From a virus, in IMG/VR virus record IMGVR_UViG_3300035698_016351, positions 1 to 30,062 of that record: 30,062 bases of DNA; one strand, written 5' to 3'. Both the position numbers and the translations under genes were made by a program. Shown piece after piece: positions 6,666 through 25,062 of this stretch (its first letter is position 1; every line of letters starts with the position of its first letter). The notes beneath the pieces were generated by a model. The model worked only from the letters and a program-made list of their open reading frames with translations. It did no database searches and was not told the DNA's origin.

Positions 6666-7028
6666 TTAGCGTGGATTAAATCCCCACTTCTTTTCTATAT
6701 CGCGGGCTTGTTTTTGCAACTGTGTACTGTCCTTCCCTGCCGAACGATTGCGGGCAACTTGGTCTGCTATACCCTTCCATTTACCAACATCGTTTTTTAT
6801 CTCTTTCCCCAAAGCGAGAGCCGCTGCATTAGACGCCCCCTGATCTTTTGCCGTTTGTGCCACAAAGAAATGATTGATCTTTCCAAGTGTGTTTACTCGA
6901 CCGAGTTTGGATTGCGCAGAAATAGCATCAGCTACTATTTTGCGCTTGTTAAAAGGGCCAGCTTCCATCATCCGCCTGACCTCGACTTCCGCTGCCCGCT
7001 TGAACTCTGGTGAAATTTGTCCCTTCAT
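6666..7028 (-). CDS. SPxFKR-head small protein, copy A
   Basis: A 120-residue basic, helical protein of unknown function. The head MKGQISPEFKRAAEVEVRRM is shared with six other proteins here. The body (residues 22-120, with KKWGFNPR at the end) resembles none of the others. The start is set by AGGAG 8 nt upstream of the ATG, directly after the palindrome at 7041. About 86 nt covering the palindrome, ribosome site and head are nearly identical to copy D (11649), with two differences seen by eye, so one head was recently copied from the other. It is inserted between the Dit-like gene and the hub gene. No catalytic motif, signal peptide or membrane segment is seen. Confidence 0.8.
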   Translation of the reverse strand: MKGQISPEFKRAAEVEVRRMMEAGPFNKRKIVADAISAQSKLGRVNTLGKINHFFVAQTAKDQGASNAAALALGKEIKNDVGKWKGIADQVARNRSAGKDSTQLQKQARDIEKKWGFNPR

Positions 7029-7040
7029 CGTTTTGCTCCT

Positions 7041-7055
7041 GTACCCCTGGGGTAC
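7041..7055. repeat. Junction palindrome, A-centred on minus strand
   Basis: A perfect copy, 2 nt after the stop of the Dit-like gene and 12 nt before the copy A ATG. With its flanks it reads TGTACCCC-A-GGGGTACA on the minus strand. In RNA this could form a 7-bp stem with a CAG triloop. In DNA it is an ideal site for a dimeric protein. The AGGAG ribosome site starts right after it. Confidence 0.95.
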
Positions 7056-7057
7056 AC

Positions 7058-7447
7058 TTATGGTGTAAAAGTCTCTAGCGCCCTGAACTCAACCGTGAAG
7101 TTGAGAATGCGCCCGTTTCTTTGTTCCTCTGGACCGTCCGGCCACACCATCTTCCCGGTGAGGTATTCATAGGTCGGATAGGTCCCCGTGAGTGTCTTGG
7201 TGCGAATGTACACCGTGGCGCTCTTGCCCGCGCAAAACGCCCTCAACTGGGTGCGCTGTGGGAAGGTGAGATAGTCCCATGACCAGGTGACGACCTTCCA
7301 TCCCGCGCCCCTGACGCCCCCATCAGCAGTTTCTATGGGGTTGGTATACTCGTTCCACGTTGAGCGCGGCGGCTGCAAGGGGGTCCCCAAACTTTCTACA
7401 TTCGTCGTGCTGCTCGTGGTCCCTATCTGGTAGCTTTGGAGTGTCAT
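7058..7447 (-). CDS. Distal tail (Dit-like) / minor tail protein
   Basis: A 129-residue beta-rich protein encoded after the tape measure and before the hub, the standard place of the distal tail protein. It contains STWNEYTNPIETADGG and WKVVTWSWDYLTFPQRTQL, the pattern of a small tail protein that describes a measured surface, and ends in NFTVEFRALETF. It is much shorter than full Dit proteins (about 250 residues) and matches only an N-terminal Dit core. It could instead be a minor tail protein joining tube to hub. The ATG at 7447 is 12 nt after a decayed palindrome. Confidence 0.5.
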   Translation of the reverse strand: MTLQSYQIGTTSSTTNVESLGTPLQPPRSTWNEYTNPIETADGGVRGAGWKVVTWSWDYLTFPQRTQLRAFCAGKSATVYIRTKTLTGTYPTYEYLTGKMVWPDGPEEQRNGRILNFTVEFRALETFTP

Positions 7448-7459
7448 TTGCCTGGCCCT

Positions 7460-7474
7460 GTACCTCTAGCGTGC
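7460..7474. repeat. Decayed junction palindrome
   Basis: The plus strand reads GTACCTCTAGCGTGC, which matches the palindrome at 11 of 15 positions. It sits in the expected place, 8 nt after one stop and 12 nt before the next ATG, so it is probably a degraded copy rather than chance. Confidence 0.45.
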
Positions 7475-7482
7475 GTTGATGG

Positions 7483-8115
7483 TCAGTCTAACGGAATCGG
7501 CCTGTTCATGCCCTGTGCGCGCAAGCCAGACCCGAACTCTATTTTTTCGTATTTCCCGTTTTGCTTGGAGGCCCATTCGGTCAATACATCCAGCCCCCAT
7601 CTGATACGGCTAACGGTCGGTGGGTGTTGCCAGTTCGTTTTCTGTATGACAATGCCGGGGAACCCTGAGTTCAAGCCAACGAGCGTCCAGTGTTGATCTC
7701 GGTCAAGAATCAAGTCGGCTTTCAGCACAGCTTCTTTAGCACTCTCTCTGTGTAATCTTACCAGTCGTCCGACTTCGGCTTCCACTGCCCTTTTGAACTG
7801 GGGTGAAATTTGTCTTTTCATTCTCTGAGCCTCCATAGAAGAATATCTGCGCTTGGCCCGGTCTCGCGTTGCGCGATCAAAAGCACCATAGAGAAGCGGC
7901 CAATGCAACAAGGCTGACTTTATGTGCCCCCTTTTGATACGCTTTTTCATATCACTCAATTCAGATAAAGCGTCTTGTTTTTTCCACCGCTTTGCTACAA
8001 CCTCTATTGGCACTAGCAATCGCAACGCCTTGTCGGGGTCGTAGTTTAGGGCGGACTGCGCTGCACTCAGGTCCATCGTGGCCCCCATCATCTCTTGCCA
8101 TTCAGTCTTGGGCAT
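7483..8115 (-). CDS. Two-part protein: unknown N-domain fused to SPxFKR-head module, copy B
   Basis: A 210-residue open frame of unknown function. Residues 1-98 form a basic helical domain (MPKTEWQEMMGATMDLSAAQ...). At residue 99 (nt 7821) the shared head MKRQISPQFKRAVEAEVGRL begins, followed by a distinct body containing WTLVGLNSGFPGIVIQK and WGLDVLTEWASKQNGK. Both possible starts have good ribosome sites: GGGAG before 8115, and GGAGG 8 nt before the ATG at 7821. Either two nested proteins (210 and 112 residues) are made, or two once-separate genes were fused by loss of a stop codon. A near-perfect palindrome precedes the outer start. Confidence 0.75.
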   Translation of the reverse strand: MPKTEWQEMMGATMDLSAAQSALNYDPDKALRLLVPIEVVAKRWKKQDALSELSDMKKRIKRGHIKSALLHWPLLYGAFDRATRDRAKRRYSSMEAQRMKRQISPQFKRAVEAEVGRLVRLHRESAKEAVLKADLILDRDQHWTLVGLNSGFPGIVIQKTNWQHPPTVSRIRWGLDVLTEWASKQNGKYEKIEFGSGLRAQGMNRPIPLD

Positions 8116-8129
8116 CGTCTTAACTCCCT

Positions 8130-8144
8130 GTACCCCTGGGGCAC
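8130..8144. repeat. Junction palindrome with one mismatch
   Basis: GTACCCCTGGGGCAC on the plus strand. The single change gives a G-U pair in the minus-strand RNA hairpin but breaks the DNA symmetry. It lies 3 nt after the stop of copy C and 14 nt before the ATG at 8115. Confidence 0.85.
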
Positions 8145-8147
8145 AAT

Positions 8148-8477
8148 TTACAAACGGATGGCTTTATTTAGGGATGAAACCACTTCTCCCATTGCCTTCC
8201 GCGTCTTTTTCAGCTCGCGTATGATAGCAAAGAGTCGTTGTTGTTGCGATTCGTCTAATTGACTCGTCATACGTCTGCCTACATTATCGTAGCCTTGCGC
8301 AAGTGTATCTATACTCTTAAAAAGACTCTGAGGTTGTCCTTCTAATTGAGCTAGTCGCTGGTCGAGATTTCTTGTTACAGTGCCGGCCAATCCCCCTTGA
8401 CCAAAAACCGGGCGCTCCTCTCGTAGCCTTTTTAGTTCTGCTTCTACTGCCCGCTTGAACTTCGGCGATGCTTTCAT
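8148..8477 (-). CDS. SPxFKR-head small protein, copy C
   Basis: A 109-residue basic, mostly helical protein of unknown function. Its head MKASPKFKRAVEAELKRLRE lacks the three residues before SP found in copies A, D and E, and is closest to copy G. The body (GGLAGTVTRNLDQRLAQLEG, then SQQQRLFAIIRELKKTRKAM) looks like a coiled coil. GAGGTG lies just upstream of the ATG. No palindrome precedes it: the tape-measure stop is only 9 nt away. Position right after the tape measure could suggest a tail-tip or ejected protein, but nothing in the sequence proves this. Confidence 0.75.
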   Translation of the reverse strand: MKASPKFKRAVEAELKRLREERPVFGQGGLAGTVTRNLDQRLAQLEGQPQSLFKSIDTLAQGYDNVGRRMTSQLDESQQQRLFAIIRELKKTRKAMGEVVSSLNKAIRL

Positions 8478-8486
8478 GTTTCACCT

Positions 8487-11312
8487 CTATCGTAAACCTC
8501 TTACCACCCGCTCCATTACTTCAAGCGTTTTCTTTTCAACCAGCACCCCGATGCGCGCCGGGTCTGAGACGTTCCCAAAATGGTTGGTCTGGGAAACTTG
8601 AACCTGCGCGCCCCCGGCCCCCGACATCGCGGCCAAGAGCTTGTTCTGGGAGAGTGTGCCCCCGGCCATCGTCTCGGCCCGGCGCGTGGTCTGGGCGTCC
8701 ATTACGAATTCGCGCCCCCGCTCCCCTAGCATGTGCAGCCCCTGCCCCGCGCTGTATCCGCCTTCCGCCCGCTGGGGGAACCCGCCCGCTGGCGGCCTGA
8801 TCACGAGTTGGGCCTGGGACATCCATTCCTTTAGAGAGTTGAGACGTTGCTCGTAATGCGCGTTCAATTCGGAAAGCTCCCCCGTGAGAAATACACCGCG
8901 TAACTGGCGCTCTTTGTCCCATCGGGCCTGGGCCTCTTGCTCGGCTTGGGAGTAAGCGGTTCGAGCTTGGCCCTGTTGTGTTCGCAGTGTCGAATCAAGG
9001 TCTTGTTCCTGGCGATCAAAGCTGTCGTTGATAGCCTGTTCCTCGTCCTGCTTTTGGTCGTGCAGGTCTCTCAGTTCACGGGTGCGCGCCTCGTCCAGTG
9101 CAACCAGTTCTAGGGCGGCCTGCTCGTCCCTGATACGCTTTTCCTCGTTGACTCGAACTTGCAATGCCGCCAGTTCTTCCTCATAGGCCCGTTGACGCGC
9201 CGACTGTTGCTCTTGGAAAGAGACTTCCATTTGAGCCAGTTGACGGGCAAAATCCTCGGAGCGCCGGGCGGCCTCCTTGCGGTAATCTTCCTCTGCACGC
9301 CCCCGGTCTGTTTGGTAAGAGCGGACTTCCTCTAGTAGCGCCAGGGCGTCCCTGGACCGAATGGCCGACCGCTGCCTGTTCACCGAATCCTCTTGCATTC
9401 GGCGCATTGCAGTCTGGTGGTCCTGTTCCGACCTCTGAACTTCCAGGCTGTGATCGGCGGCGGCCTCTGTGCGTGCCGCGTAATGGTCGGCTTCCGCCTG
9501 GGACATGTCTGACTGGAAGGACGACATAGCGGATACCCGGTCAGCGCCTATCTCTTTTTCAGTCGCCACCATCGTGTCGCTCTGGCGCTCAAGAATTGCT
9601 TCCCGCTCCGTGGCGGTCTTGAGGTCCATTTCCACCATTGCCCGGTCCCACTCTGAGACAATTTTGGCCCGTTCTTCCCCCGTCTCGTTTGCCAGGTCTA
9701 TAAGTGCCCCGTCGTGTTCTTTCTGGGCGGCTTCTACCTCGGCGGTCATGGCCTTGTTGGCGGCCTCTACTTCATCAAGGAAAGCCTGCCACGGCTCGGC
9801 CAACTTGAGAGTGGAAACAGCGTCCTGCATCTCTGCGGCCACTCCCAGGAGAACCCGCTGCAGCCCCGTTGATGCGGCGGCCACGTCGCGCAGAGTGGCG
9901 TTCCCTTCCCTATAGGTCTGCCACAATTTCTCCATTTCCTTGCGCTGCTCAAACGCGGCTTTGTCCAGCTTGTAAAACACTTTCTCGCCCTGGCCCAGTT
10001 CGGTGTTGAGGCTGTCTATGGCGCGCTCATAATCCTTGTGGTCTTTGGCTACCTGGACGAGGGCCTGCTGCACCTTGCCCTGCTCGGCGTTGACCAAGCC
10101 CTGCCTGCTCAGGAACGCGGCGGCGATAACGCCCCCCTTGTCGTATGCCTCGTTGACACCCCGTTGAGCGTCGTTGTACCGGTTGGCAAGGTCGGCGGCG
10201 TTCTCCACCTCTCCCGTGGACTTGGTGAGAAATACGTCCCAGTGCCCGGCCATTTCCTCAGTTTTACTACCCGTGTCGTCGGCAAAGCGTTTGATCGCCA
10301 CGCCAGCCGCGCCCACGGCCACCACTGCCGCGCCGATAGCCAGCGCAGGGGCTGCCGCAGCCAGCGCCCCACCTACCCCGCCAGCCGCCTGGCCTGCGCC
10401 GCCCATCCCCAAAAGCGCACGCTCCTTTGACGCAGCCCCCATCCCCACAGCGGCGGCCAGTTGCTTGTTGGCCGCATCCTGCATCATCTTGGCGGCCAAG
10501 AACCGCTGTGTCTCAATGACGAGCAGCTTTGCATCAGCGTAAATGCGGATACCACGGGTGACGGCAGACTGTAAAGCGGCGGCGGCCACAACGGCTGTTC
10601 CTATCCCCAGGGCTACCTGCATCGCCTCGGGATATTTCTCGGCCAGGTCGGCGGCCTTGTCCACCACGCCGGCGGTTGCGTTTATCAGGGGGACAAGGGC
10701 CTGGATAGCCACGCCCCCCAACCGCGCCTGAGCGGTCTCGAGTTCTTTGGTCGTGTTCAACCAAAGCTGGCTGACCTCATCCGCTTCCCCGGCAACCTGT
10801 ATGTATTGGCTGGCCCATCCCTCAAGGGAACCCTGAATCGACATCCCTATCCCGGCCAACTCTGAACCCACGGCCTCGAACTGCGACGATAGCGCCCCCA
10901 GTTCTTGCCATTCTTCCCCTAGAAGTTGCGACTGTTGGCGCAGGCGTCCCATGTCCTCTTGAAGGTCGTCAAAGGCAGAAACGGACTTGATAGAGTTTTC
11001 AAGCTCCCCCAGGGCGGCCCTCACTTCCAGGATGGAGAACTTACCCGACTTGAACCCGGCCCACACCTCGTCCAGGGCGGCCTTGAGACCTGGGGCATCG
11101 GCGCTGCTCATCCCGTCAAGCGTATTCCCCAGAGATTGAAACATCCCCTCTAGTTCGTCCGTCGCCGTGCCGGTCTCGTCCAGGGACGCCTTGAGTGTGT
11201 CCAGGGCCTTGTCAAGCTCGCTAGTGCCGCTCTTGACCTCGCGGATACCACGCGGGTCAATGCCGTACTGCAAAATGGCTCTTAGGGTTCGTTCCGTCGC
11301 TGCTACTGGCAT
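8487..11312 (-). CDS. Tape measure protein
   Basis: The 941-residue protein is the longest complete tail-module gene product after the hub. It sets tail length and is threaded through the tube before ejection. It lies directly downstream of the frameshifted chaperone genes, apart from one small inserted gene. Residues about 231-250 and 320-342 are hydrophobic helices able to cross a membrane. Residues about 500-830 form a long charged coiled coil rich in E, Q, R and A (for example DQKQDEEQAINDSFDRQEQD). The C-terminus (about 880-941) is Gly/Ala-rich, then ends MERVVRGLR. At about 1.5 angstrom per residue it predicts a tail near 140 nm. No lysozyme or peptidase domain is evident. AGGA precedes the ATG. 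Confidence 0.93.
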   Translation of the reverse strand: MPVAATERTLRAILQYGIDPRGIREVKSGTSELDKALDTLKASLDETGTATDELEGMFQSLGNTLDGMSSADAPGLKAALDEVWAGFKSGKFSILEVRAALGELENSIKSVSAFDDLQEDMGRLRQQSQLLGEEWQELGALSSQFEAVGSELAGIGMSIQGSLEGWASQYIQVAGEADEVSQLWLNTTKELETAQARLGGVAIQALVPLINATAGVVDKAADLAEKYPEAMQVALGIGTAVVAAAALQSAVTRGIRIYADAKLLVIETQRFLAAKMMQDAANKQLAAAVGMGAASKERALLGMGGAGQAAGGVGGALAAAAPALAIGAAVVAVGAAGVAIKRFADDTGSKTEEMAGHWDVFLTKSTGEVENAADLANRYNDAQRGVNEAYDKGGVIAAAFLSRQGLVNAEQGKVQQALVQVAKDHKDYERAIDSLNTELGQGEKVFYKLDKAAFEQRKEMEKLWQTYREGNATLRDVAAASTGLQRVLLGVAAEMQDAVSTLKLAEPWQAFLDEVEAANKAMTAEVEAAQKEHDGALIDLANETGEERAKIVSEWDRAMVEMDLKTATEREAILERQSDTMVATEKEIGADRVSAMSSFQSDMSQAEADHYAARTEAAADHSLEVQRSEQDHQTAMRRMQEDSVNRQRSAIRSRDALALLEEVRSYQTDRGRAEEDYRKEAARRSEDFARQLAQMEVSFQEQQSARQRAYEEELAALQVRVNEEKRIRDEQAALELVALDEARTRELRDLHDQKQDEEQAINDSFDRQEQDLDSTLRTQQGQARTAYSQAEQEAQARWDKERQLRGVFLTGELSELNAHYEQRLNSLKEWMSQAQLVIRPPAGGFPQRAEGGYSAGQGLHMLGERGREFVMDAQTTRRAETMAGGTLSQNKLLAAMSGAGGAQVQVSQTNHFGNVSDPARIGVLVEKKTLEVMERVVRGLR

Positions 11313-11328
11313 GTTCTATCCTGTTGCT

Positions 11329-11649
11329 CTACTTTTGATTCTTGACCTGGACGTGAAGCCGCTCCAATTCCTTGTTCATTTTTCCCAGGTCCCTTATCAT
11401 CCCTTCCAACTTTGTGGCCGTGCTCTTGGCGGTTTGATTCCCAGACTCTTTGGCCCAGGTAGCCACTTCCGTCTGGGCGTACCCTAGTTGTCGTCTGGCA
11501 CTAATCATTTGCGTCCGACTAGCTTGCAAGTCCTTTGATGCGCGCTGCTGACTATCTGCAGCCTCACTCACTCGACCGCGACGAATAATAAGCCGCCTGA
11601 CCTCGACTTCCGCTGCTCGCTTGAACTGTGGTGAAATTTGTCCCTTCAT
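11329..11649 (-). CDS. SPxFKR-head small protein, copy D
   Basis: A 106-residue helical basic protein inserted between the tail-chaperone pair and the tape measure, a spot normally without a gene. The head is MKGQISPQFKRAAEVEVRRL. The body (SQQRASKDLQASRTQMISAR, later LEGMIRDLGKMNKELERLHV) is coiled-coil-like and unrelated to the other copies. The ribosome site AGGAG and ATG follow the palindrome at 11662 with the same spacing as copy A, and the DNA of palindrome plus head is almost the same. Function unknown. Confidence 0.78.
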   Translation of the reverse strand: MKGQISPQFKRAAEVEVRRLIIRRGRVSEAADSQQRASKDLQASRTQMISARRQLGYAQTEVATWAKESGNQTAKSTATKLEGMIRDLGKMNKELERLHVQVKNQK

Positions 11650-11661
11650 CGTTTTGCTCCT

Positions 11662-11676
11662 GTACCCCTGGGGTAC
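11662..11676. repeat. Junction palindrome
   Basis: A perfect copy, 3 nt after the stop (11680) of the frameshifted chaperone and 12 nt before the copy D ATG. That it sits next to the frameshifted stop, not the zero-frame stop at 11916, supports the frameshift product being the real gene end. Confidence 0.95.
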
Positions 11677-11679
11677 ACT

Positions 11680-12344
11680 TTATGCTCCGGTCTGTTCCTC
11701 TATGATGGACGATAGCCACGAGATAGTAGCCAGGTCCTCTAACAACAACTCAGGCTGGTCGAGCAGCCCCCCCTCAACGGGGAGATGTTTCCAGCCTGTG
11801 CTTTCCAACAACGTCCATATTTTCCACGACCTTTCCAGTTCCACGGGCGGCTCCCAGTCGTCGGGTATCTCCCGGCTGCCCTTGAGAGCGTCCCGACGAG
11901 CATTGTGCCATTTTATCAGGCGGCACTGGACGTCAGTTTGCTGCTCTTGTCGCTCGGCTTTTTTTTTGCTGACTCGTCCTTTGGCGTCCCGGTCAATGAC
12001 CAGTGAGGGTTCAGGCCCAGCACCTCGGACAAGATGCTCATTGCCAGTTCTTCAGGCAGGGCCAGGAAGTCCTGAAAGGTCAGGTCCCCAGGAAGGTCAA
12101 GATCGCGCTCGGACTTGCCCTCATCATCAAGGAACCGAATCAGGCCCCCGACCGTGCCCGCCTTGACTGCCGGCCATTGCATCCACAGCGCCGTCCGCTC
12201 GTAGGTGGTCAGGTCCCCTTCTGGTGCGCGCAGCCCCTCGTCAGTCAACCGGGAGCGTTCCAGCCCCATCGCAACCGTAGCGTGGGACAGGACTATCTTG
12301 GCCTGGACGCCAAAGTCATCATATTCAATCGTTTTGGTTCTCAT
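11680..12344 (-). CDS. Tail assembly chaperone GT fusion, made by -1 frameshift
   Basis: On the minus strand the zero frame reads GCA AAA AAA AAG near codon 126. A -1 slip on A-AAA-AAG opens a frame of 92 further codons (AERQEQQTDVQCRLIKWHNA...SIIEEQTGA) ending at 11680-11682. The fused product is about 221 residues. This is the classic siphovirus G/GT arrangement just upstream of the tape measure: a major short chaperone and a minor extended form that recruits the tape measure and tail tube subunits. The extension is an uninterrupted helical protein segment that fills the gap up to the next palindrome exactly. Frameshift efficiency cannot be read from sequence. Confidence 0.85.
11916..12344 (-). 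CDS. Tail assembly chaperone G (zero-frame product)
   Basis: A 142-residue acidic protein, MRTKTIEYDDFGVQAKIVLS at the N-terminus, with a helical core (TYERTALWMQWPAVKAGTVG, DLTFQDFLALPEELAMSILS) and a low-complexity end (SAKKKPSDKSSKLTSSAA) produced where the frame passes the A-run. It is the abundant G form, which coats the tape measure during assembly and is absent from the mature virion. The ATG overlaps the stop of the 310-residue gene as ATGA, implying coupled translation. Confidence 0.8.
   Translation of the reverse strand: MRTKTIEYDDFGVQAKIVLSHATVAMGLERSRLTDEGLRAPEGDLTTYERTALWMQWPAVKAGTVGGLIRFLDDEGKSERDLDLPGDLTFQDFLALPEELAMSILSEVLGLNPHWSLTGTPKDESAKKKPSDKSSKLTSSAA
11958..11964 (-). 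promoter_or_regulatory. Slippery site A-AAA-AAG for -1 ribosomal frameshift
   Basis: Nine A residues (11959-11967) followed by G on the minus strand contain the heptamer A AAA AAG in the correct zero-frame phase, the same heptamer type as in E. coli dnaX. It joins the G and T frames of the chaperone gene. Confidence 0.85.
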
Positions 12345-13273
12345 GGCCGCCCCTTCGTCTTGAATCCCCGTCCCGCCCGATGAACATCACGGGGGTCAAT
12401 GGCCGGTGGAAACTTGCCTTTCATGTAGGCCAATTCTGCGTCATTCCCACCCTGATCCTGGAGCGTTGATACCCGGTCACTGCTCCCAAAGTGGAGCCAG
12501 TCCCTGTCAGCGACGGTCCCGCTTTTTTCCAAGTGAGCGTTGACCAATTTACCCCCTTTGGCCCGGTTGCCTTGCTTGACATACGTACTCCCCTTGTAAA
12601 AGAACCGTTCCCGGAGTCCAATGTCCCGAAATGGCTTGGTGGCCTCTGACGCCCTGCTACTCGGCAAGGCCCCCCTCACCGAGGTGTCAGCTTCTTCTTT
12701 GGCCCGGTCCAGCACCGGCTTGAATGCGCCGGTCGCTTCCTGGACGGTCCCAAACGTCTGGATGGCCGCAGGCGTGGCGGATCCGCCCACGTAGGCATAG
12801 AGCATAAACGGACGGATGGCGTTGCCGTGGTACACGATGCGCCCCCGGTCGTCGCCCTCTTTGCGCTCCACCACTGGGCCAAGTTGGACATCCCAACCGC
12901 TTGGGGCATCCCCCGGCCACACCGCCGATTCGGCCAAGCGGTAACGGGCCACCGCCGCCCATTCGGAACCAGCCTCGTTGTACCTGACCACTGATGGCGC
13001 CATTTCTTGTTCCAGGGGCAGGGCCAGCCGCTCGGCCAACAGCTTGGCCTCACGCACGCCCAGGGCCAGGGCGCGCCGGGCGGCTTCCGGGTCCAGGGCT
13101 ACCGCTTCCAGGGCCAGCATACCGTCCTGGATGAACAAGTCCACCCCGGTCCGGCTGTTGCCCATTCCCTCTACCACGTCCAACAGTGTAGGAGGGAACA
13201 ACAGCGCCTCTATCATCGGCGCAACTTTGTTGAATACCGCAGCCTCCAACACTGCCCTTTTCTCTTTATTCAT
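12341..13273 (-). CDS. Unknown protein between major tail protein and tail chaperones
   Basis: A 310-residue protein I do not recognise. Residues 1-100 are helical (MNKEKRAVLEAAVFNKVAPM, DPEAARRALALGVREAKLLA). The middle has GRIVYHGNAIRPFMLYAYVG. The C-terminus is basic and lysine/glycine-rich (KGSTYVKQGNRAKGGKLVNA, then RGFKTKGRP). GGAGG precedes the ATG by 6 nt, and the gene overlaps the chaperone start by ATGA. This slot in siphoviruses usually holds nothing or a small tail protein, so it may be a tail-tube accessory or decoration protein. That is positional inference only. Confidence 0.6.
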   Translation of the reverse strand: MNKEKRAVLEAAVFNKVAPMIEALLFPPTLLDVVEGMGNSRTGVDLFIQDGMLALEAVALDPEAARRALALGVREAKLLAERLALPLEQEMAPSVVRYNEAGSEWAAVARYRLAESAVWPGDAPSGWDVQLGPVVERKEGDDRGRIVYHGNAIRPFMLYAYVGGSATPAAIQTFGTVQEATGAFKPVLDRAKEEADTSVRGALPSSRASEATKPFRDIGLRERFFYKGSTYVKQGNRAKGGKLVNAHLEKSGTVADRDWLHFGSSDRVSTLQDQGGNDAELAYMKGKFPPAIDPRDVHRAGRGFKTKGRP

Positions 13274-13294
13274 TGTTCGCCTCCATAAACCGGC

Positions 13295-14119
13295 TTATGT
13301 GTGCTCGTAAAAGATGACGATCTCGGCGTCGGTGATCGGGGCAGTCGTCCACTGCACCCCGGTCGTCGCTTTGGTGATGCTGGCTGTGGTCAGAACGCCG
13401 CTCACCCACACCGCGATCTTGTCCGTGCTTTGCGCCGGGAAGTCTGTGTCGAATGCAAAGTCCGTCTCAGCACTATCGCCCAGAAACGAGGCCAGGCGCG
13501 GCTTGTATTCGGAAATGCCCCGGAAACCTTGAGCCTGTTCAAAGCCCTCGGTCCCTACGGCAAAGGCCGTGCCCCAGAGGTGTTTTGTCACGAACTGAGG
13601 ACGAATTGTGTACATTTTTTCCTCTGGTGCGCTCTGGAAGCCGCTTTCCCGCTCGATGACAAACGTCTTGGGGAAAAGACGGAACTCCCAACGCCGGGAG
13701 CCAAAGGTCGTGCTATCCGGGTCGGTGTCCAGGGTTTGCCGATAGGCCAGCAAAGCCACTTGGTTTTCATCGCCACGATTGTCCGTGCCAATGCCCAGAA
13801 TTTGGGCTTCTCCAACGGATACGGCCAAGTCGTCCCCGATGACCTGGGCGACAACGTCATTGACCTTGCCCACTACCAGCTCGCCGCTCAGGGCCTCTGT
13901 GGGTGGGAGAACGTCCAGGGCGAAAACCCGGTCGTCGCCCAGGTGGGATATTTGCTGCGGCTCAGGGTCATTGATCGTCAGCGCCCTGGCCCCGCTGATA
14001 CGTAGGCCGGCATACTCGCTTGTGTCCGTGGCGTTAGGATACCCGTCAGCGGCCAGCGCGAAAAGCTGGACGTGGCGAAAGCCAACCCCACTTCGGATCT
14101 CGTTGCTCAGTGCAGTCAT
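13295..14119 (-). CDS. Major tail (tube) protein
   Basis: A 274-residue protein located just before the tail chaperones with only one gene between, the usual place of the tube subunit. It is beta-rich, with blocks such as RISGARALTINDPEPQQISH, SGELVVGKVNDVVAQVIGDD and WEFRLFPKTFVIERESGFQS, consistent with the tail-tube fold. Residues about 210-274 (DSAETDFAFDTDFPAQSTDK...VIFYEHT) form a separate C-terminal beta domain, perhaps surface-exposed on the tube. Its start overlaps the glycosyltransferase stop by ATGA, so the two are likely made together. Confidence 0.7.
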   Translation of the reverse strand: MTALSNEIRSGVGFRHVQLFALAADGYPNATDTSEYAGLRISGARALTINDPEPQQISHLGDDRVFALDVLPPTEALSGELVVGKVNDVVAQVIGDDLAVSVGEAQILGIGTDNRGDENQVALLAYRQTLDTDPDSTTFGSRRWEFRLFPKTFVIERESGFQSAPEEKMYTIRPQFVTKHLWGTAFAVGTEGFEQAQGFRGISEYKPRLASFLGDSAETDFAFDTDFPAQSTDKIAVWVSGVLTTASITKATTGVQWTTAPITDAEIVIFYEHT

Positions 14120-14820
14120 GCGTCTACCTCCAGACCCGCTCCTTCGGGGTCAACTAGAATTTTAGGGTCCGCCAATTTGTAGGCGTCCCATGTTTCCGGC
14201 CCGATAACTTGAATCCCCAAATGGGGAGTTACGAGACTGGTGTCACAATAATGGTGTATGCCGTTTTTCTCACAAAGCCCGGCAAAGAAAATGTCCTCGG
14301 TCATTGAAAAGTCAGCGCCTTCCAGGTAGGCGTATTGAAACCACGGGTATTCGTACCCCGCTGCAATCAACTTGTCAAACACCCACCGCCGAATGAGCAT
14401 GGCCCCGGTCGCCACGGCATCGCATTCATAAAGGTAGCCTATATCCCACTCGGCAGGGTTGTGTAACTTGCCGTCCTTCAAGCGCACAAAGAACAGTGGG
14501 TCGTAAGGCTCCCCCCGGCGAAAGTACAACGCTCCGACAACTCCCCGCTCTGGCTCTTGCGCCGCCAGTCTCACCAGGGTGTCGTGGGGGTGAATGTGGT
14601 CGCAGTCCAACATGATAATGGCATCGTTGGGGTTGCCCGCCAGTTCCAGAAACGAGGCCACGGCCCGGTTACGCGCCATGTCTGTCCTCATGTAAGGAAT
14701 GGAAATGCGCGCGTAATTTTTCACAGCGGCGGCCCAGGCAACGTCCAAGACCGCATCAACCGCGTGCCCGCTGATGTTACGCTCCATTAGATACGCCCAG
14801 TAAATTTGTGGCTTGGTCAT
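14116..14820 (-). CDS. GT-A fold glycosyltransferase
   Basis: A 234-residue protein with the features of small family 2-like glycosyltransferases. There is an N-terminal nucleotide-sugar half, a DCD motif (about 72-74, in IIMLDCDHIHPHD) that would bind the metal and sugar nucleotide, GALYFRRGEPYDP, a CDAVATGAMLIRR segment, and an ED acid pair in MTEDIFFAGLCEKNG (about 175). It ends in a conserved-looking SLVTPHLGI. It is encoded next to a methyltransferase and translationally coupled to the major tail protein, so a virion protein, possibly the tail tube, is a plausible acceptor. Acceptor and sugar are unknown. AAAGGAA lies just upstream of the ATG. Confidence 0.8.
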   Translation of the reverse strand: MTKPQIYWAYLMERNISGHAVDAVLDVAWAAAVKNYARISIPYMRTDMARNRAVASFLELAGNPNDAIIMLDCDHIHPHDTLVRLAAQEPERGVVGALYFRRGEPYDPLFFVRLKDGKLHNPAEWDIGYLYECDAVATGAMLIRRWVFDKLIAAGYEYPWFQYAYLEGADFSMTEDIFFAGLCEKNGIHHYCDTSLVTPHLGIQVIGPETWDAYKLADPKILVDPEGAGLEVDA

Positions 14821-14832
14821 TGTCTTTCCTTT

Positions 14833-14847
14833 AGCGCCCTCGGCGCT
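14833..14847 (-). other. Short hairpin in glycosyltransferase leader
   Basis: AGCGCC-GAG-GGCGCT on the minus strand is a perfect 6-bp stem with a 3-nt loop, between the palindrome (14853) and the ribosome site. It makes this leader longer (32 nt) than at other junctions and may modulate translation. There is no T-run, so it is not an intrinsic terminator. Confidence 0.5.
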
Positions 14848-14852
14848 TGGTT

Positions 14853-14867
14853 GTACCCCTGGGGTAC
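14853..14867. repeat. Junction palindrome
   Basis: A perfect copy, 1 nt after the methyltransferase stop and 32 nt before the glycosyltransferase ATG. Confidence 0.95.
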
Positions 14868-14868
14868 G

Positions 14869-15600
14869 CTAAACCTTCCTACAAATCAACATCGAATCGG
14901 CGCGGTCGTGGATGACCAGGGCTTCCTGAGAAAGCAACAAGTCCACGCTCTCGCGCACCGACTCCCATCCGGTATAATCGTGAAACGCAACGAGGCCCCC
15001 AGGGATGACCTTTGGCTCCCAGGCCGCGTAGTCTGTCCCCGCCTCACTGTGGTTTCCGTCCACGAACAAGAGACCCACCGGCTCCCTCACCAGGTCCTGG
15101 GCATCCTCAGAAGCGACGATCAGCGGAACAATAATCTTTTGTAGCCCGGCGCGCTCTACGTTGGCCTGGAAGAAAGGGAGCGTTCCGCCCACCGTCTCAG
15201 TTCTCGAGTGCGCGTGCTCTGGGGACCCCTGGTGAGTGTCCACAGCATAGACCTTGCACCCGTTCCCTATCTTGCTACCCCATCCCAGGCAAACAGTGGA
15301 GCGCCCCTTATAGGAACCAATTTCCACGATGCTGTACCCCTGGGGTACACCTTTAGCCAGGTCAAAGAGCGCGCACATTTCAGCCCCCGTCAACCAGCCG
15401 TCAATGCCCTGGGCCAGGGCCTGCACCGAGCGCACGTCCAGGGGCAGGGCCACGGGAATGGTTGCCTTGAGCGCCCCGGCTTTTGTACTCATCATTCCCC
15501 GAAAGACACTCTTGTCAGGGTCAAATTCCAGACGGCGCACATGGCCTTGTACCCGCACACTTTGCGCCCCGTCGCCCGCAGGATCAAAACTCGCTTTCAC
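14869..15600 (-). CDS. Class I SAM-dependent methyltransferase
   Basis: A 243-residue protein using a GTG start at 15600, chosen because AAGGAG lies 8 nt upstream. A longer frame upstream lacks support and would overlap the preceding gene fully. Motif I is VEIGSYKGRST (about 92-102) and the acidic ribose-binding region is VYAVDTHQG (about 118-125). LLFVDGNHSEAGTDY (about 177-191) and GGLVAFHDYTGW (about 201-212) match the Methyltransf_24 / cephalosporin-hydroxylase-like group found in glycan clusters. It probably modifies a sugar or protein together with the adjacent glycosyltransferase. A perfect palindrome lies inside the gene and encodes GVPQGY just before motif I. Confidence 0.85.
   Translation of the reverse strand: MKASFDPAGDGAQSVRVQGHVRRLEFDPDKSVFRGMMSTKAGALKATIPVALPLDVRSVQALAQGIDGWLTGAEMCALFDLAKGVPQGYSIVEIGSYKGRSTVCLGWGSKIGNGCKVYAVDTHQGSPEHAHSRTETVGGTLPFFQANVERAGLQKIIVPLIVASEDAQDLVREPVGLLFVDGNHSEAGTDYAAWEPKVIPGGLVAFHDYTGWESVRESVDLLLSQEALVIHDRADSMLICRKV
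15334..15348. repeat. Palindrome inside methyltransferase coding sequence
   Basis: A perfect copy read in frame as part of LAKGVPQGYSIVEIG. This is one of two copies deep inside a gene, and it does not disturb the methyltransferase fold motif that follows. Confidence 0.95.
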
Positions 15601-15772
15601 TTTTTGGCTCCTTGACTTTTTTGGGCACACGGCGCTTTTCAGGGGCAGGCGCATCGCACTCATAGACCGCACGGCCCCCGTGATAGGCGACAAGCCGCCC
15701 CGGTAGCGTTGGGTGGGGGACCAATGGCAAGCGGCCCAGTGTTGGATGTTTGTAGAATGATTTCTTGGGCAT
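15584..15772 (-). CDS. Small basic unknown protein
   Basis: A 62-residue protein with MPKKSFYKHPTLGRLPLVPH at the start, a middle AYHGGRAVYECDAPAPEKRR and a Lys/Glu-rich end. It starts 2 nt after the stop of copy E with GAGG just upstream, and overlaps the methyltransferase start by 17 nt. This tight packing with both neighbours and good ribosome sites supports it as a real gene. Function not recognised. It is compact and Pro-rich, perhaps a small structural or zinc-free beta protein. Confidence 0.6.
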   Translation of the reverse strand: MPKKSFYKHPTLGRLPLVPHPTLPGRLVAYHGGRAVYECDAPAPEKRRVPKKVKEPKSESEF

Positions 15773-15774
15773 CG

Positions 15775-16110
15775 TTATCCTCTCTTGTCCAACATCAAAA
15801 GCAAATCATTGATGACCTGCGTTGCGCTCTGTGGATTAGGAGCGCCCCTCAATGCCTGTAGCTTGCGCCTGATAAGAGAGGCGTCTTGGGAAAATGCCTT
15901 ATTCCTTATCATTTGTCCCCCCAGCTTGTCCACATCGTCAACAACATCACCGATAGACCAAGTGTTGGCTTGACGCTTCACAGCTTTGAGTTGGGCTTTC
16001 AATCTGCCCAAGACATCAGGAGACACGGGTAACATCCCCGCTTGTTCAATTAGCCGCCTGACCTCGGACTCCAGCGCCCGCTTGAACTTTGGTGAAAATT
16101 GTCCTTTCAT
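15775..16110 (-). CDS. SPxFKR-head small protein, copy E
   Basis: A 111-residue protein with head MKGQFSPKFKRALESEVRRL. The body is mixed helical (LGRLKAQLKAVKRQANTWSI, DVVDDVDKLGGQMIRNKAFS, ATQVINDLLLMLDKRG) and not shared with the other copies. Ribosome site GGGAG follows the palindrome at 16125. Function unknown. It stands in the neck-tail region next to copy F, so two head-bearing genes are adjacent here. Confidence 0.78.
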   Translation of the reverse strand: MKGQFSPKFKRALESEVRRLIEQAGMLPVSPDVLGRLKAQLKAVKRQANTWSIGDVVDDVDKLGGQMIRNKAFSQDASLIRRKLQALRGAPNPQSATQVINDLLLMLDKRG

Positions 16111-16124
16111 CGTTCTAACTCCCT

Positions 16125-16139
16125 GTACCCCTGGGGTAC
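16125..16139. repeat. Junction palindrome
   Basis: A perfect copy, 7 nt after the stop of copy F and 14 nt before the copy E ATG. Confidence 0.95.
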
Positions 16140-16146
16140 AATTTCC

Positions 16147-16806
16147 CTAGAGCAGCCCTGCCGCTTTCAAATCGTCGCGGGCCATCTCTTTTTGATAAAC
16201 CATCACCAGGTCTTGGAGCATCCGCACTCCATACTTGTCACGCTCTTTGGTTGCCTGGTCTAGCATCATCCTGTTGAGCTTGGCCTGGGCAGGCTTGGCG
16301 TACTTTGCCAGAATGCGGGCGCGCGCGCTCATCTTTTGGGTTGCGCTCATTTCTTCCATGAGCCGTCTGACTTCGGACTCGACAGCTTCCCTGAACCGTG
16401 GAGATAGTTTCATCACTTTTCCCTCAAATCGGCTATCTGCCTTTTGGGACATTGTGGCATCCCACAAGCCACGCTTGGTAAGCAACCGCCTGGCGGCCTG
16501 GACATTAGCATTGTCGGGATGTCCCCGCGCCGCGTCCATGAGTTTTTCAATACGCCCCTTTGGCCTCAGTTTCCCGGCTTTGACCAGTTCCCTGTACTCG
16601 GCCCGGAGCTTGTTCGCTCTCCTTTGCCATTCATCCAGTAATTGCGCATGGCGTTTCCTGCCAACCGTTTTGGACCGTCCGCTCAAGTGACCGGCTGGGC
16701 TGGCAAAGCTGGCAAAATGCGGGGCCGTTGATCTCACACCCTTGCTAGCCAGGTATTCTTCCTCGCTCATTGCCCGCTGTTCAAGCATCCGTTTTATGCG
16801 CATCAT
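16147..16806 (-). CDS. Two-part protein with internal SPxFKR head, copy F
   Basis: A 219-residue frame. Residues 1-131 are a basic helical domain (EEEYLASKGVRSTAPHFASF, QRRANKLRAEYRELVKAGKL, ARGHPDNANVQAARRLLTKR) of unknown function. At residue 132 (nt 16413) the head MKLSPRFREAVESEVRRLME begins, then a short helical body of about 65 residues. The internal ATG has GAGGG 7 nt upstream, so an 88-residue inner product may be made as well. The outer start overlaps the preceding gene by ATGA. The design mirrors copy B: an unrelated domain fused in frame in front of a head. Confidence 0.75.
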   Translation of the reverse strand: MMRIKRMLEQRAMSEEEYLASKGVRSTAPHFASFASPAGHLSGRSKTVGRKRHAQLLDEWQRRANKLRAEYRELVKAGKLRPKGRIEKLMDAARGHPDNANVQAARRLLTKRGLWDATMSQKADSRFEGKVMKLSPRFREAVESEVRRLMEEMSATQKMSARARILAKYAKPAQAKLNRMMLDQATKERDKYGVRMLQDLVMVYQKEMARDDLKAAGLL

Positions 16807-17297
16807 GCCTCCTTAAGCGCCGTCGTCTCTTGAAGCTGCTGGCTGATCTCAATATAGTGGCAGAGCACCCCGCCAAAGTTCCTCAGTTCCATCACGTCAA
16901 TTGAGCAAGGCGGCGTGTCATTGTAGTAGGCGTCCTGGTCGTGTAGGTCACTGTCCAGGTCCAGGGCGTTTGCCACGACCTCGCCCAGTGCCGCCGCTGT
17001 TTTCTCTGAATCATCTTTCAGACTCAGAAAGCCGTGGATAACCCACCGATAAGAACGCAGCACCACGGCTGTACTCTTGCCCGTCGAGTTGTACTCCCAA
17101 GTTATCGTTTCCCCTGGGATGGCGCGCACTTCCATTGTCCACCCTCGGATAACATCATCGCCGCTGATGGTGGTCTTGAACTTAGAAAGGATGTCCGACC
17201 AGTGCATGGCCCAGACCAAGTAGTCATAGGTCTGGCCTATGTTTGCCACGCTGTCTATGATGGTCTTTAGGTGCGCGCGCTGTGTTGCCTCGGTCAT
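16803..17297 (-). CDS. Probable tail terminator / tail completion protein
   Basis: A 164-residue protein with an alpha/beta order (MTEATQRAHLKTIIDSVANI, then several strands such as RSYRWVIHGFLSLKDDSEKT, then LGEVVANALDLDSDLHDQDA) resembling siphovirus tail terminators, which cap the tube at the neck. It is encoded soon after the gp10-like gene and before the major tail protein, as expected. Its start lies just after the stop of copy G and its stop overlaps copy F by ATGA. I see no diagnostic motif, so this rests on length, shape and order. Confidence 0.5.
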   Translation of the reverse strand: MTEATQRAHLKTIIDSVANIGQTYDYLVWAMHWSDILSKFKTTISGDDVIRGWTMEVRAIPGETITWEYNSTGKSTAVVLRSYRWVIHGFLSLKDDSEKTAAALGEVVANALDLDSDLHDQDAYYNDTPPCSIDVMELRNFGGVLCHYIEISQQLQETTALKEA

Positions 17298-17298
17298 T

Positions 17299-17745
17299 TC
17301 AGACCGTCCGTTTTACACTGGCCCAGGTTTGGAGAGCTTGGCCTATGAGGCCAGCTATTTTCCCGTTGGCTTTCATAATTGTTACCAACTCATCCCGGCT
17401 TTCCGGCTCTGACCTTGCCGCTTGCTGGACTTGGGCATTGAAGGCGTTTATGGCATAGTCCGCTTCGCGCAACGCATCGTCTACCCGCTTTTTGCCAGAG
17501 GACAAATTGCTTTTTGTTTGCGCGGTCGCCTCGCTTGGGCGCTTCCCCGTGAGCTTGAAGATGATCTCGCGGGCCTCGTCCTTTGTCATCCCCCCCATTA
17601 CCATAGCTACAGCGTCGGGCATCTTGAGGGTCTTTTTAGCGATTGCTAACTGATGTCTCTCAGGCATGGTAAGATTCCCCCGCGCCTCACGCAACCGCCG
17701 CAGCGCCGTCTCTACCTTTCGCCTGAATCGTGGTGATGCTTTCAT
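17299..17745 (-). CDS. SPxFKR-head small protein, copy G
   Basis: A 148-residue protein with head MKASPRFRRKVETALRRLRE, the most diverged of the set and closest to copy C. The body (MPDAVAMVMGGMTKDEAREI, TGKRPSEATAQTKSNLSSGK, FNAQVQQAARSEPESRDELV) is helical. The ATG at 17745 is chosen because AGGAG sits 8 nt upstream and the palindrome just beyond. An in-frame extension to 17775 would start inside the palindrome and is unlikely. Inserted between the gp10-like and tail-terminator genes. Function unknown. Confidence 0.78.
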   Translation of the reverse strand: MKASPRFRRKVETALRRLREARGNLTMPERHQLAIAKKTLKMPDAVAMVMGGMTKDEAREIIFKLTGKRPSEATAQTKSNLSSGKKRVDDALREADYAINAFNAQVQQAARSEPESRDELVTIMKANGKIAGLIGQALQTWASVKRTV

Positions 17746-21834: not shown

Positions 21835-23595
21835 TTAGACGTTGCTCTTGTGCAGCCCGCGCCAGTCGCCCACAGGGGCGCAGTCGTAGGTGTCGCTATA
21901 GCGGAAGGTCAACATACGAACCTTGAACCTCAGCGTGTCGTTCGTGAACATCGCGCCCGCCGTCTCGCTGTCAGCGGTGAACAGCTCAGGAACGGCCCGC
22001 CCGCGCAGGAAGATGAGCCAGATCGCGGGGAACATGGCCGGGTCCGCAACGGCGGCCCAGTCGTTCACGTCCGTGAAGGTCGGGATTGGGATGTACTCAA
22101 ACGTGCCCTGGTGGATGTTCACCTCGTTGTCGCCAGTCCCGGGGCGGAACTCGGAGTTACGCACCTGCAGGACAGCGGTCTCGATGTCCACAGGCCCCAG
22201 AACATACTTGGGCGTGGCGAGCAACCGCTGGCCCGCGCCAAGCACCTGGTCAGTCTGCTTCATCATCGCAGACCGGACGGCAGTAAAAGCGTCATGAGTG
22301 AACGCGGTCGTCAACAGGTTGGTATGGCCGCCCGCGCTCGTGAGCGCCGTGGCGTTGAAAAGCGCGCCGGTGTCAGTCAGTACAGGCCCGGCCCCGGTGT
22401 TGAGCGTGAACACGCCGCTTACCAGGTTGCTGATGGTGTTGTACCAGCTCGTAGCGAGCCGGTCGGGAATAGTGCGGACTTTGTTGAGTTTGTCCCGCAA
22501 CAGCGTCTCAAGGGTGACACCAACAAAGTTACCCTTCTTCACGAATGTCGCGGTCTCTTCCTCGTCCGTCCAGTCCAGTTCGTCATAGGCTTGGCCTTCC
22601 TCAACGACTTCCAACGTGTTCATGCCGTAGACGCGCACCAAGGTGGCGTCATCAATCGTGTCCACTTCCTCTTGGGTCACAAGAGGCGTCCACCACTGAT
22701 GGCGCTTGCTGTAGTCAGCGGCCAAGAGCAGGTTGAGCGTATTTTTTACAATGGACGTCATGGACGACGTGCTCACGGCCTCATAAGCGCGGTTATCCTG
22801 GAAGGGGTCCCCGCCCAGCAAGTCATAGACCCACGTGCTCATCCGGTGCGTGTTGGTCCTGGGGCGGCCCGACTTGACCCAGGAACGGAAAGCGGGCGTT
22901 TGCAGGCGCTTTTTGGTGTAGTGGTCGTCAACCGCTTCCAGGGTGCGGAAACGGTGATCCCCGGCCACGAGGCGCAAAAAGTCAACCTCGGCCTGTTCGA
23001 CACCGGTCAGCCCAACGCTGATGCGGGTGCGCCCGCCATTGCCCCCGGCCCCGGTAACGCGGCCAGTGGGGTCTGTTTTCGCAACGGCTTCTCTGACTCG
23101 TTTTATCATGGTGTCTACCTCTGACTGGCGATAATCGGCGCGCCCCTGGAACTGAGTACGCACGATGTTAGCGAATGGGCCAGAGAGACGGGACGCGGTG
23201 AGCGCGGATTCCAGCCGACGCTCGGCCTTTTCCAGAGCCAGTTTGCCCTCGATGGCCCGCAGGCGTTGATCCATCTCCAAGCCCTCGCCCATACCCATCG
23301 GCATGAGTTCTTCCTCGTCCTCTAATGGCACCGGCTCTTCCTCGGCCAGAATCTCGGCGGTCACTTCCTCGACCGCATCCAGGATAACAGCAGCGGCCTG
23401 GGCGGCGGCGTCCTCAACGGGCGCTGCGTCAACGTCCATCTCTGCGACTGGTTCTTCTTCCTCATCGAGCGTCGGATCCGCCTGCTCGACCATTTCTTCT
23501 TCCTCGTCAATCTCCGGCTCCATCTCCTGATACTCAGTCATCGCTTCCTGAATAGCGGCTTGGATAGCCTCTTTTAGTTCGGTTGGCAGTGTCAT
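21835..23595 (-). CDS. Major capsid protein with acidic N-terminal scaffold-like region
   Basis: A 586-residue protein, much longer than a bare HK97-fold subunit (about 300-400). Residues 20-105 are extremely acidic (EIDEEEEMVEQADPTLDEEE), then a coiled coil (RLRAIEGKLALEKAERRLES, about 130-150). The HK97-fold part appears to run from about 240 to the end, with VTLETLLRDKLNKVRTIPDR and MLTFRYSDTYDCAPVGDWRG resembling Mu gpT-type and actinophage capsid subunits. No separate scaffold gene is seen nearby, so the N-terminal region probably acts as a built-in scaffold removed by the protease encoded just upstream. A perfect GGAGGT precedes the ATG. Confidence 0.88.
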   Translation of the reverse strand: MTLPTELKEAIQAAIQEAMTEYQEMEPEIDEEEEMVEQADPTLDEEEEPVAEMDVDAAPVEDAAAQAAAVILDAVEEVTAEILAEEEPVPLEDEEELMPMGMGEGLEMDQRLRAIEGKLALEKAERRLESALTASRLSGPFANIVRTQFQGRADYRQSEVDTMIKRVREAVAKTDPTGRVTGAGGNGGRTRISVGLTGVEQAEVDFLRLVAGDHRFRTLEAVDDHYTKKRLQTPAFRSWVKSGRPRTNTHRMSTWVYDLLGGDPFQDNRAYEAVSTSSMTSIVKNTLNLLLAADYSKRHQWWTPLVTQEEVDTIDDATLVRVYGMNTLEVVEEGQAYDELDWTDEEETATFVKKGNFVGVTLETLLRDKLNKVRTIPDRLATSWYNTISNLVSGVFTLNTGAGPVLTDTGALFNATALTSAGGHTNLLTTAFTHDAFTAVRSAMMKQTDQVLGAGQRLLATPKYVLGPVDIETAVLQVRNSEFRPGTGDNEVNIHQGTFEYIPIPTFTDVNDWAAVADPAMFPAIWLIFLRGRAVPELFTADSETAGAMFTNDTLRFKVRMLTFRYSDTYDCAPVGDWRGLHKSNV

Positions 23596-23610: not shown

Positions 23611-25062
23611 CTATGGTTTCAATAGCTTGCTCTCAAGGGCTTCCAGAGCAATCCCCGCTCGGTCCAGCGTTTCGCGCAATTCCTTCACGCGCCGCTGTAC
23701 CCCTGGGGTACAAAGGCCCTGCCCTGCCCGTCCATTCAATGTTTCCACCATCGCCTCGCGGGTAGTGGTCGCAATGAAGGTTATAAGCTCTGGCGTTAGT
23801 TCATAATTTCCCTCTTGTTGATGCTGCATACTGGCAAGGATGCGATTAAAACCCCCGCCGGCGGCAGGCTCTGGTACAAGGTCCACTGAGAAGATTTTTT
23901 TGAATCCCTCAATGGCCGGTATCTGCTTTCCCTCAAGCCGAATGCTGGTCTCTTGAGGAAATGTGTCAATGCTCAGACCAACAGTATTGAGAACCTTTTG
24001 TTTGAACGCCCTGAGAAGTTTTCCGGCCAAGTCATCGTCTACCACCTTGAAAATGCCCTGCAGGCGGCGACGGGCGGGGTCCCATCGGGGGGAGACAATA
24101 TTCCCCATCCATTCCTTTTTGGCCGACCTCATGCCCTGCTTCTCTTCGAACTCGGCGTCGGTCAAATGGTTGTCATAAACTTTGACTCCCTGCCAATCAG
24201 GGGCCGATTCGCGCAAGGCGGCGCAGGCATAAAGCCGTCCGTTCTGTGACCTCACGTACTCTTTGCCATCAACTGCCACCAGGTCAGCGGGCGTCCTGGG
24301 GCCAATAATGGTGACATCCCAGGCGTGCCCCGTGAATTCCTCTCCCTCAGTGATGGGCCAGAGGTTCGTTACCCAACTCTCCCGCAGGCGCGCATCGGCT
24401 TGTTTCTTGTCTGGCATATCGGTTTCTCCCTGGTGCTTGAAGGCGTTGACTTGCTGCTCTCGGTCCTCGGCGGCGGCGCGCGAGGTAAAAGGCCCGCCCA
24501 GTTTCTTGTCCCCGTCCTTGCTATAGAGATACCACCCGTCAGTCTGGTGACGGATGACCTCTTGAACATTCAAGGGGAAATCGTGGCGCTTCCCGGCCAC
24601 CATCAAGGCAAGCGTGTCAAAGGTGACGGGGAAGTCCAGGCTATCGGTGGGCAATGGGGGCGGGGCCTCGTTAGGTTCGGAGTAGGCAAGGGTAATGTGG
24701 GGCGTGTACCCGTGGTCGGTCTTGGGTTCGTAGCCGTGGCCCCCTATATAGTCTACAAGGTCCTGACGCCACTGGGGCAAAGTCGGCGCGTCAAAGTTTG
24801 CGTACAAGGGCGTTCGTCCATCCTCGCCGGGGGAGAACTGACCACCCCCATTGACCACCCCAGAAACCGGCGCGTGACTGCCAGCCCACTCTTGAACGAT
24901 GGCTGGTAACTTGTCCAAATTCTCTACCTCATCCACGTCACCAAAATAGACGAGGGTAACGTGATGTGAGTCGTCCAGGGTCTCGTCGCCAGGCAACGCC
25001 AGACGCTGGGTTTCCTTGTCACCCAAGAAAAAGGCTATCATTACTCCCGTGTTTTGCGCCAT
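23611..25062 (-). CDS. 2H-phosphoesterase (LigT-like) fused to capsid maturation protease
   Basis: A 483-residue fusion. Residues about 5-165 carry two HxT motifs (HVT 34-36 in DSHHVTLVYFGD, and HIT 122-124 in PHITLAYSE), the catalytic signature of the 2H phosphoesterase / 2'-5' RNA ligase family. Residues 186-212 form a short GWYLYSKDGDKKLGGPFTSR linker unit. Residues about 225-410 look like a phage prohead protease: VYDNHLT (His299), VGLSIDT (Ser364) and FSVDLVPEPAAGGGF, which resembles the end of herpesvirus-type prohead proteases. A helical end follows. The ATG at 25062 has GGAG 5 nt upstream. The terminator T-run ends 13 nt before it. The protease would trim the capsid N-terminus. Confidence 0.78.
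   Translation of the reverse strand: MAQNTGVMIAFFLGDKETQRLALPGDETLDDSHHVTLVYFGDVDEVENLDKLPAIVQEWAGSHAPVSGVVNGGGQFSPGEDGRTPLYANFDAPTLPQWRQDLVDYIGGHGYEPKTDHGYTPHITLAYSEPNEAPPPLPTDSLDFPVTFDTLALMVAGKRHDFPLNVQEVIRHQTDGWYLYSKDGDKKLGGPFTSRAAAEDREQQVNAFKHQGETDMPDKKQADARLRESWVTNLWPITEGEEFTGHAWDVTIIGPRTPADLVAVDGKEYVRSQNGRLYACAALRESAPDWQGVKVYDNHLTDAEFEEKQGMRSAKKEWMGNIVSPRWDPARRRLQGIFKVVDDDLAGKLLRAFKQKVLNTVGLSIDTFPQETSIRLEGKQIPAIEGFKKIFSVDLVPEPAAGGGFNRILASMQHQQEGNYELTPELITFIATTTREAMVETLNGRAGQGLCTPGVQRRVKELRETLDRAGIALEALESKLLKP
23697..23711. repeat. Palindrome inside protease coding sequence
   Basis: A perfect copy about 90 nt before the stop, read in frame as CTPGVQ between the Ser-protease part and the C-terminal helix. 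Confidence 0.95.

Follow-up and report, generated by a model that had tools for sequence, protein, structure and literature searches.

Internal proteins of bacteriophage T4 reach the core by means of propeptides of 10–19 residues, which gp21 cleaves at L/I-x-E (PMC9026906). These capsid-targeting sequences (IPI, IPII, IPIII), together with the N-terminal signal of P1 DarB (PMC9026906, PMC9024508), are the closest known comparison for a short peptide, here called the head, that is shared by seven small proteins (H1–H7) encoded in a 30,062-base linear IMG/VR record of viral DNA (IMGVR_UViG_3300035698_016351; hereafter the window, analysed over its full length), and that in some copies is preceded by a 15-bp palindrome, GTACCCCWGGGGTAC. 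As in T4, a short peptide is common to small proteins with divergent mature parts, the seven heads being followed by unrelated bodies; an [LM]xE boundary motif in 5 of the 7 heads recalls the gp21 site. Unlike in T4 and P1, two of the heads are internal to their open reading frames (ORFs), the H genes lie among neck and tail genes, and no sequence relation to the known signals is seen; we liken the putative H-protein tag to the T4 targeting peptides by functional resemblance, not by membership. Encapsulation peptides of bacterial microcompartments (e.g. PMC11157265) are likewise short helices fused to unrelated cargo enzymes and directed to a shell, but serve a cellular organelle rather than a phage and provide an analogy only.

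The first-pass annotation had described seven shared heads, beginning at 7028, 7821, 8477, 11649, 16110, 16413 and 17745, and all of them are present there, on the minus strand:

6963–7028, minus strand: H1 head MKGQISPEFKRAAEVEVRRMME; gene 6666–7028, 120 residues, isoelectric point (pI) 10.4
6666–6962, minus strand: H1 body, no detectable relatives
7756–7821, minus strand: H2 head MKRQISPQFKRAVEAEVGRLVR, inside ORF 7483–8115
7483–8115, minus strand: long ORF of 210 residues containing H2; start behind a variant palindrome
8418–8477, minus strand: H3 head MKASPKFKRAVEAELKRLRE; gene 8148–8477, 109 residues; no palindrome; directly after the tape measure gene
11584–11649, minus strand: H4 head MKGQISPQFKRAAEVEVRRLII; gene 11329–11649, 106 residues; DNA from palindrome to head end nearly identical to that of H1
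16045–16110, minus strand: H5 head MKGQFSPKFKRALESEVRRLIE; gene 15775–16110, 111 residues
16354–16413, minus strand: H6 head MKLSPRFREAVESEVRRLME, inside ORF 16147–16806 (219 residues)
16459–16788, minus strand: H6 N-terminal domain, residues 7–116; homologues in Lactobacillus phage LR1 and in Bacteroides plasmid proteins
17686–17745, minus strand: H7 head MKASPRFRRKVETALRRLRE; gene 17299–17745, 148 residues; a separate helix (residues 5–21) in the AlphaFold2 model
17548–17676, minus strand: H7 module, residues 24–66; a complete small protein, stand-alone in other contigs

The seven copies follow the motif SPxFKRAvExEVRRLxE, 15–17 residues long, and are not a weak chance similarity: scored with a leave-one-out position-specific scoring matrix, each held-out head reaches 31–48 bits, against 14.5 bits for the best non-head sequence among 557,022 six-frame residues. 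Pairwise N-terminal scores for the heads shown are 52–93, while unrelated ORF starts of other loci rarely exceed 45, genuine tandem duplicates excepted. Column identity is 0.5–1.0 at most of positions 0–14 and at background (mostly 0.00–0.19) from position 17 on, so that the similarity between H proteins ends abruptly at the head/body boundary. No head was found in the other contigs of this phage, among the 28 capsid relatives from GTDB (728,726 residues; best score 10.6 bits) or in some 40 capsid-gene relatives; pattern scans of IMG/VR and GTDB contigs, which need near-exact words, confirmed none either. A neck-protein helix in contigs L013 and L018 that resembles the head (E-value 0.98) was dismissed as chance. 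The H proteins, of 88–219 residues, carry no recognised enzymatic domain and give nothing above noise against Pfam, PHROGs, NCBIfam and PADLOC; as first described, all seven are basic (pI 10.0–10.8) and encoded in the neck-tail region, two of the genes flanking that of the tape measure.

The bodies had been described as lacking visible similarity, and no homology between them was detected. Smith-Waterman comparison with shuffles gave no significant similarity in any of the 21 body pairs (the best, H1/H4, having p ~0.01–0.025 before correction), and in leave-one-out searches with hidden Markov models (HMMs) the held-out bodies ranked 12–179 (H2, 938), with E-values of 3–600, below decoys. Body homology of H1 with H4 and of H3 with H5, suspected by eye, found no support in the pairwise or HMM tests; used as queries, H1, H5 and the long ORF of H2 returned no relatives.

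Two of the bodies do have counterparts elsewhere. Residues 24–66 of H7 form a module, VPxKHQxKIAxxTLKMSDxGAxIMGGMTKDEAR, that is present in 16 IMG/VR contigs, in several of which it constitutes a stand-alone protein of ~50–60 residues; because the latter has its own Met near H7 residues 20–25, the head of H7 has been added ahead of an entire protein. The module instead opens a larger protein in L030 and L038, where the genes for terminase and for a portal of the phrog_213 family lie a short distance upstream. It is widespread in phage contigs (L025–L040), either alone or embedded, and has no match in Pfam, NCBIfam or PHROGs, as tested with H7 and its relatives. The AlphaFold2 model of H7 (mean predicted local distance difference test score 82, predicted template modelling score 0.42) consists of a head helix (5–21), the module (27–66) and a long hairpin (70–147); searches of the PDB and of viral folds with H7 gave no significant match. 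A single-sequence model of H3 is weak (66) and also contains a head helix, at residues 5–20. The helical nature first reported for all seven was tested for H7 and H3, and by eye the body of H2 appears non-helical.

H6 residues 7–116 match a stand-alone protein of Lactobacillus phage LR1 (AYN56723.1) as well as a segment of ArdC/zincin polyvalent proteins from Bacteroides plasmids. Polyvalent proteins of phages and conjugative elements are mosaic proteins for which entry into the cell together with the DNA has been proposed (PMC5512222); H6, alone among the H proteins, resembles them in having this shared domain. Unlike polyvalent proteins, which are large and combine several effector domains, the H proteins are small with at most one extra domain, and the head motif was not found described for polyvalent proteins. 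Modularity is evident twice, in H7 as a head plus a stand-alone protein and in H6 as a polyvalent-protein domain plus a head.

A further discontinuity is seen at the DNA level between H1 and H4, which from the palindrome to the end of the head are 87–100% identical per 15-nt bin (~95%) and then fall to chance. Because identity is lost right after the head, the 5′ unit of these genes, comprising palindrome, ribosome-binding site and head, was copied or converted recently between them, with differing bodies; duplication of whole genes alone does not explain the pattern. Together with the H7 module and the H6 domain, this break at the head end supports the original notion of a shared head with exchangeable bodies.

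Substitutions within the head indicate how it has been maintained. Over the 15 codons from the SP dipeptide, the pooled proportion of synonymous differences (pS) is 0.67 and that of non-synonymous differences (pN) 0.20 (pN/pS 0.29). In most pairs outside H1/H4/H5 pS is 0.5–1.1, and for H3/H7 and H2/H7 it reaches ~1.1 at a pN of 0.25, residues S, P, F, E and R being invariant beside near-saturated synonymous sites. Since amino acids are kept while synonymous sites approach saturation, these values argue for purifying selection on the head peptide itself, at the protein level.

The palindrome, which the first-pass annotation had missed at four of the heads, is distributed as follows:

7041–7055: 15-bp perfect palindrome GTACCCCWGGGGTAC, before H1
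6648, 11662, 14853, 15334, 16125, 17759, 20102: starts of other exact copies
21363, 23697, 25166, 25982, 27048, 27326, 29937: starts of other exact copies
~8130, ~26754: near copies

Its 15 exact copies (window positions 6648–29951) compare with 9e-5 expected, and 12 of them end 12–32 nt before a start, against a mean of 1.0 and a maximum of 7 upon random placement (20,000 trials). In the structural and replication modules (window and L021–L023) it closely precedes the ribosome-binding sites of many genes, and the heads at 7028, 11649, 16110 and 17745 (H1, H4, H5 and H7) start 12–14 nt downstream of a copy. Because the H2, H3 and H6 heads occur without it, and it precedes many genes without a head, the palindrome constitutes an independent layer, which in some copies has moved along with the head. 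Start-associated repeats are known just upstream of many gene starts in cluster K mycobacteriophages, at 11–19 copies per genome (PMC3203893). The element of the window is similarly placed, but is a 15-bp perfect palindrome rather than the 13-bp asymmetric consensus 5′-GGGATAGGAGCCC of cluster K; unlike the latter, it sits upstream of the ribosome-binding site, occurs also in structural genes and was copied with coding sequence in H1/H4. Two copies are inside coding sequence, at 15334–15348 (methyltransferase ORF) and 23697–23711 (C-terminal part of the protease ORF), where they are translated as VPQG or TPGVQ-like peptides. A putative binder of the palindrome is an XRE-type regulator (L022:5843–6235).

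The N-terminal position first ascribed to the head holds for 5 of the 7 copies, those at 7821 and 16413 (H2 and H6) beginning at in-frame internal ATGs of ORFs 7483–8115 and 16147–16806. The H2 ATG follows a strong Shine-Dalgarno sequence (−8.6 kcal/mol, top 1.5% of internal ATGs) and that of H6 a Shine-Dalgarno-like GAGG (−5.8 kcal/mol, top 14%). Nested in-frame starts are plausible for both, and internal initiation could expose these heads as nested in-frame genes.

What the head may do is best considered against the structural genes of the window, which all lie on the minus strand and encode morphogenesis, protease, capsid, neck and tail, tape measure and tail proteins (for the tail proteins and the tape measure, the names come from length, order and composition instead of a family match):

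27993–28901, minus strand: morphogenesis protein
23611–25077, minus strand: head maturation protease with an N-terminal RNA-ligase/2H-like domain
21835–23595, minus strand: major capsid protein with an acidic, scaffold-like N-terminal region (residues 1–110, net charge −38)
8487–11312, minus strand: tape measure (no family match)

We favour, at a probability of about 0.48, the reading that the head is a conserved docking helix, a portable tag that recruits unrelated small basic cargo to the forming particle. Recombination would fuse this helix with small basic proteins that are unrelated to each other and are produced from the structural operon. Every head helix, with its S-P N-cap, hydrophobic stripe (F3, V7, V11, L14) and basic flanks, would attach to the same component of the assembling particle. 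The likeliest candidate for this component is the very acidic N-terminus of the capsid protein, proposed on the basis of charge complementarity (H protein charges being +9 to +23) and of the T4 analogy; docking would enrich the cargo inside the virion or on its surface, from which it would probably enter the host cell along with the DNA. A targeting tag, as originally put forward, is the best reading of the head, since purifying selection acts on the peptide and the models give it a helix of its own, although two of the heads lie within their ORFs and cleavage is only hinted at. The hint is the [LM]xE at the head/body edge of 5 of the 7 heads, with a binomial probability of ~1e-5 (~1e-4 if H1/H4 are counted once) for a statistic framed after the pattern had been seen. 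Of the T4 precedent invoked in the first-pass annotation, the short common peptide and divergent bodies stand, but a matching protease specificity is unsupported in relatives; such a specificity, suggested by 8 sites in capsid residues 1–105 and 0 thereafter, found no support in a reversed-motif control or in the comparison with 20 relatives.

Several observations weigh against a packaging tag. The heads were found in one phage only, so that their conservation rests on intragenomic copies, and pN/pS is biased downward by the recognition of these copies through protein similarity. Two of the seven are internal in their ORFs, and head hydrophobic moments are only modestly above those of shuffles (p 0.02–0.33). 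The shell proteins of 20 relatives do not avoid the motif (87 [LIM]xE vs 90.6 expected), the 0 vs 3–4 expected in the shell of the window being weak. Finally, some helical C-terminal hairpins (H1/H4, H3/H5) may be remotely homologous, and the genes are found among neck-tail rather than capsid genes, where a tail partner fits equally well.

The last point is central to an explanation that has the head bind a component of the tail or neck (tape measure, tube or portal) and makes the H proteins minor tail or neck proteins instead of packaged cargo. The location of all seven genes, two of them flanking the tape measure gene, agrees with it; relatives with partly syntenic neck genes nevertheless lack H genes at comparable sites, so the latter are probably dispensable, and the H7 module and H6 domain occur in contexts suggestive of head-cluster or delivered proteins, which makes it quite unlikely. 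An ordinary paralogous family, derived from one helical gene with constraint on the head alone and bodies diverged past detection, would account for the basic, largely helical character and similar lengths (88–148 residues) of the proteins, for the weak C-terminal hairpin similarity of H1/H4 and for left-out bodies often ranking, albeit not significantly, in the top 1–9%. We consider it unlikely, as profile comparison finds no homology, the first 43 body residues of H7 are a foreign stand-alone protein, the H2 body ranks near 1000 of ~1500, and H1/H4 bodies at chance behind a head and 5′ DNA ~95% identical would in any case need recombination or gene conversion.

It is also conceivable that the copied unit is merely the 5′ gene start (palindrome, ribosome-binding site and first 20 codons), with the N-terminus as a passenger, in which case new ORFs landing behind it would gain late expression. 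The spacing of H1, H4, H5 and H7 from the palindrome, the non-coding portion of the H1/H4 identity and the marking of gene starts across the phage all suit capture by such an expression cassette; this is, however, rather unlikely given that H2, H3 and H6 carry a head without palindrome, most palindrome genes are headless and diverged heads, in contrast to a passenger, keep their amino acids at near-saturated synonymous sites. Improbable, too, is a hitherto undescribed packaging code of phages, whereby one mobile 5′ unit, made of regulatory palindrome and docking helix, would land in front of, or inside, foreign ORFs and with just one recombination event make them cargo delivered by the virion.

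The window belongs to a phage for which further sequence is available. Its left end (1–127) shares 127 identical bases with contig 3300035698_024213 (L022:1–127), an overlap that makes both contigs pieces of a single phage or of near-identical phages; the second contig supplies replication genes and the XRE-type regulator. Contig 3300035150_000102, with terminase- and portal-like ORFs and the same palindrome, presumably also belongs to it. Capsid relatives are found in IMG/VR at 45–60% identity, and since the 28 in GTDB contigs come nearly all from Chloroflexota/Anaerolineae, the host probably belongs to Chloroflexota. In relatives such as L005, protease and capsid protein, separate in the window, seem to form one ORF, judging from the open frame ahead of the capsid match. 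Glycosyltransferase-like and methyltransferase genes are inserted between tail genes at 14116–15693, a place occupied in L007, L010 and L011 by different genes of apparently similar kind; at 26045–26740, a gene for an HslV-family-like peptidase (phrog_1040) is preceded by a near-copy of the palindrome. GTDB contig L069 contains ~100 copies of a CACGCGCGTGGGG-type repeat near its capsid-gene relative, possibly a clustered regularly interspaced short palindromic repeats (CRISPR) array.

In summary, the shared head, found in one phage, is a real feature and of greater interest than a gene family that has diverged; we infer the destination of the tag, and with it what the head binds, its packaging and delivery, and any cleavage at the [LM]xE boundary. 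A testable context now exists for the H7 module, which many phage contigs contain although Pfam, PHROGs and NCBIfam have no match for it. A tag that worked as proposed would represent a general route, separate from those of T4 and P1, by which a phage recruits new proteins to its particle, in this case a phage whose host phylum is largely uncultured, and the head would provide a sequence handle for delivered proteins that have no recognisable domain.

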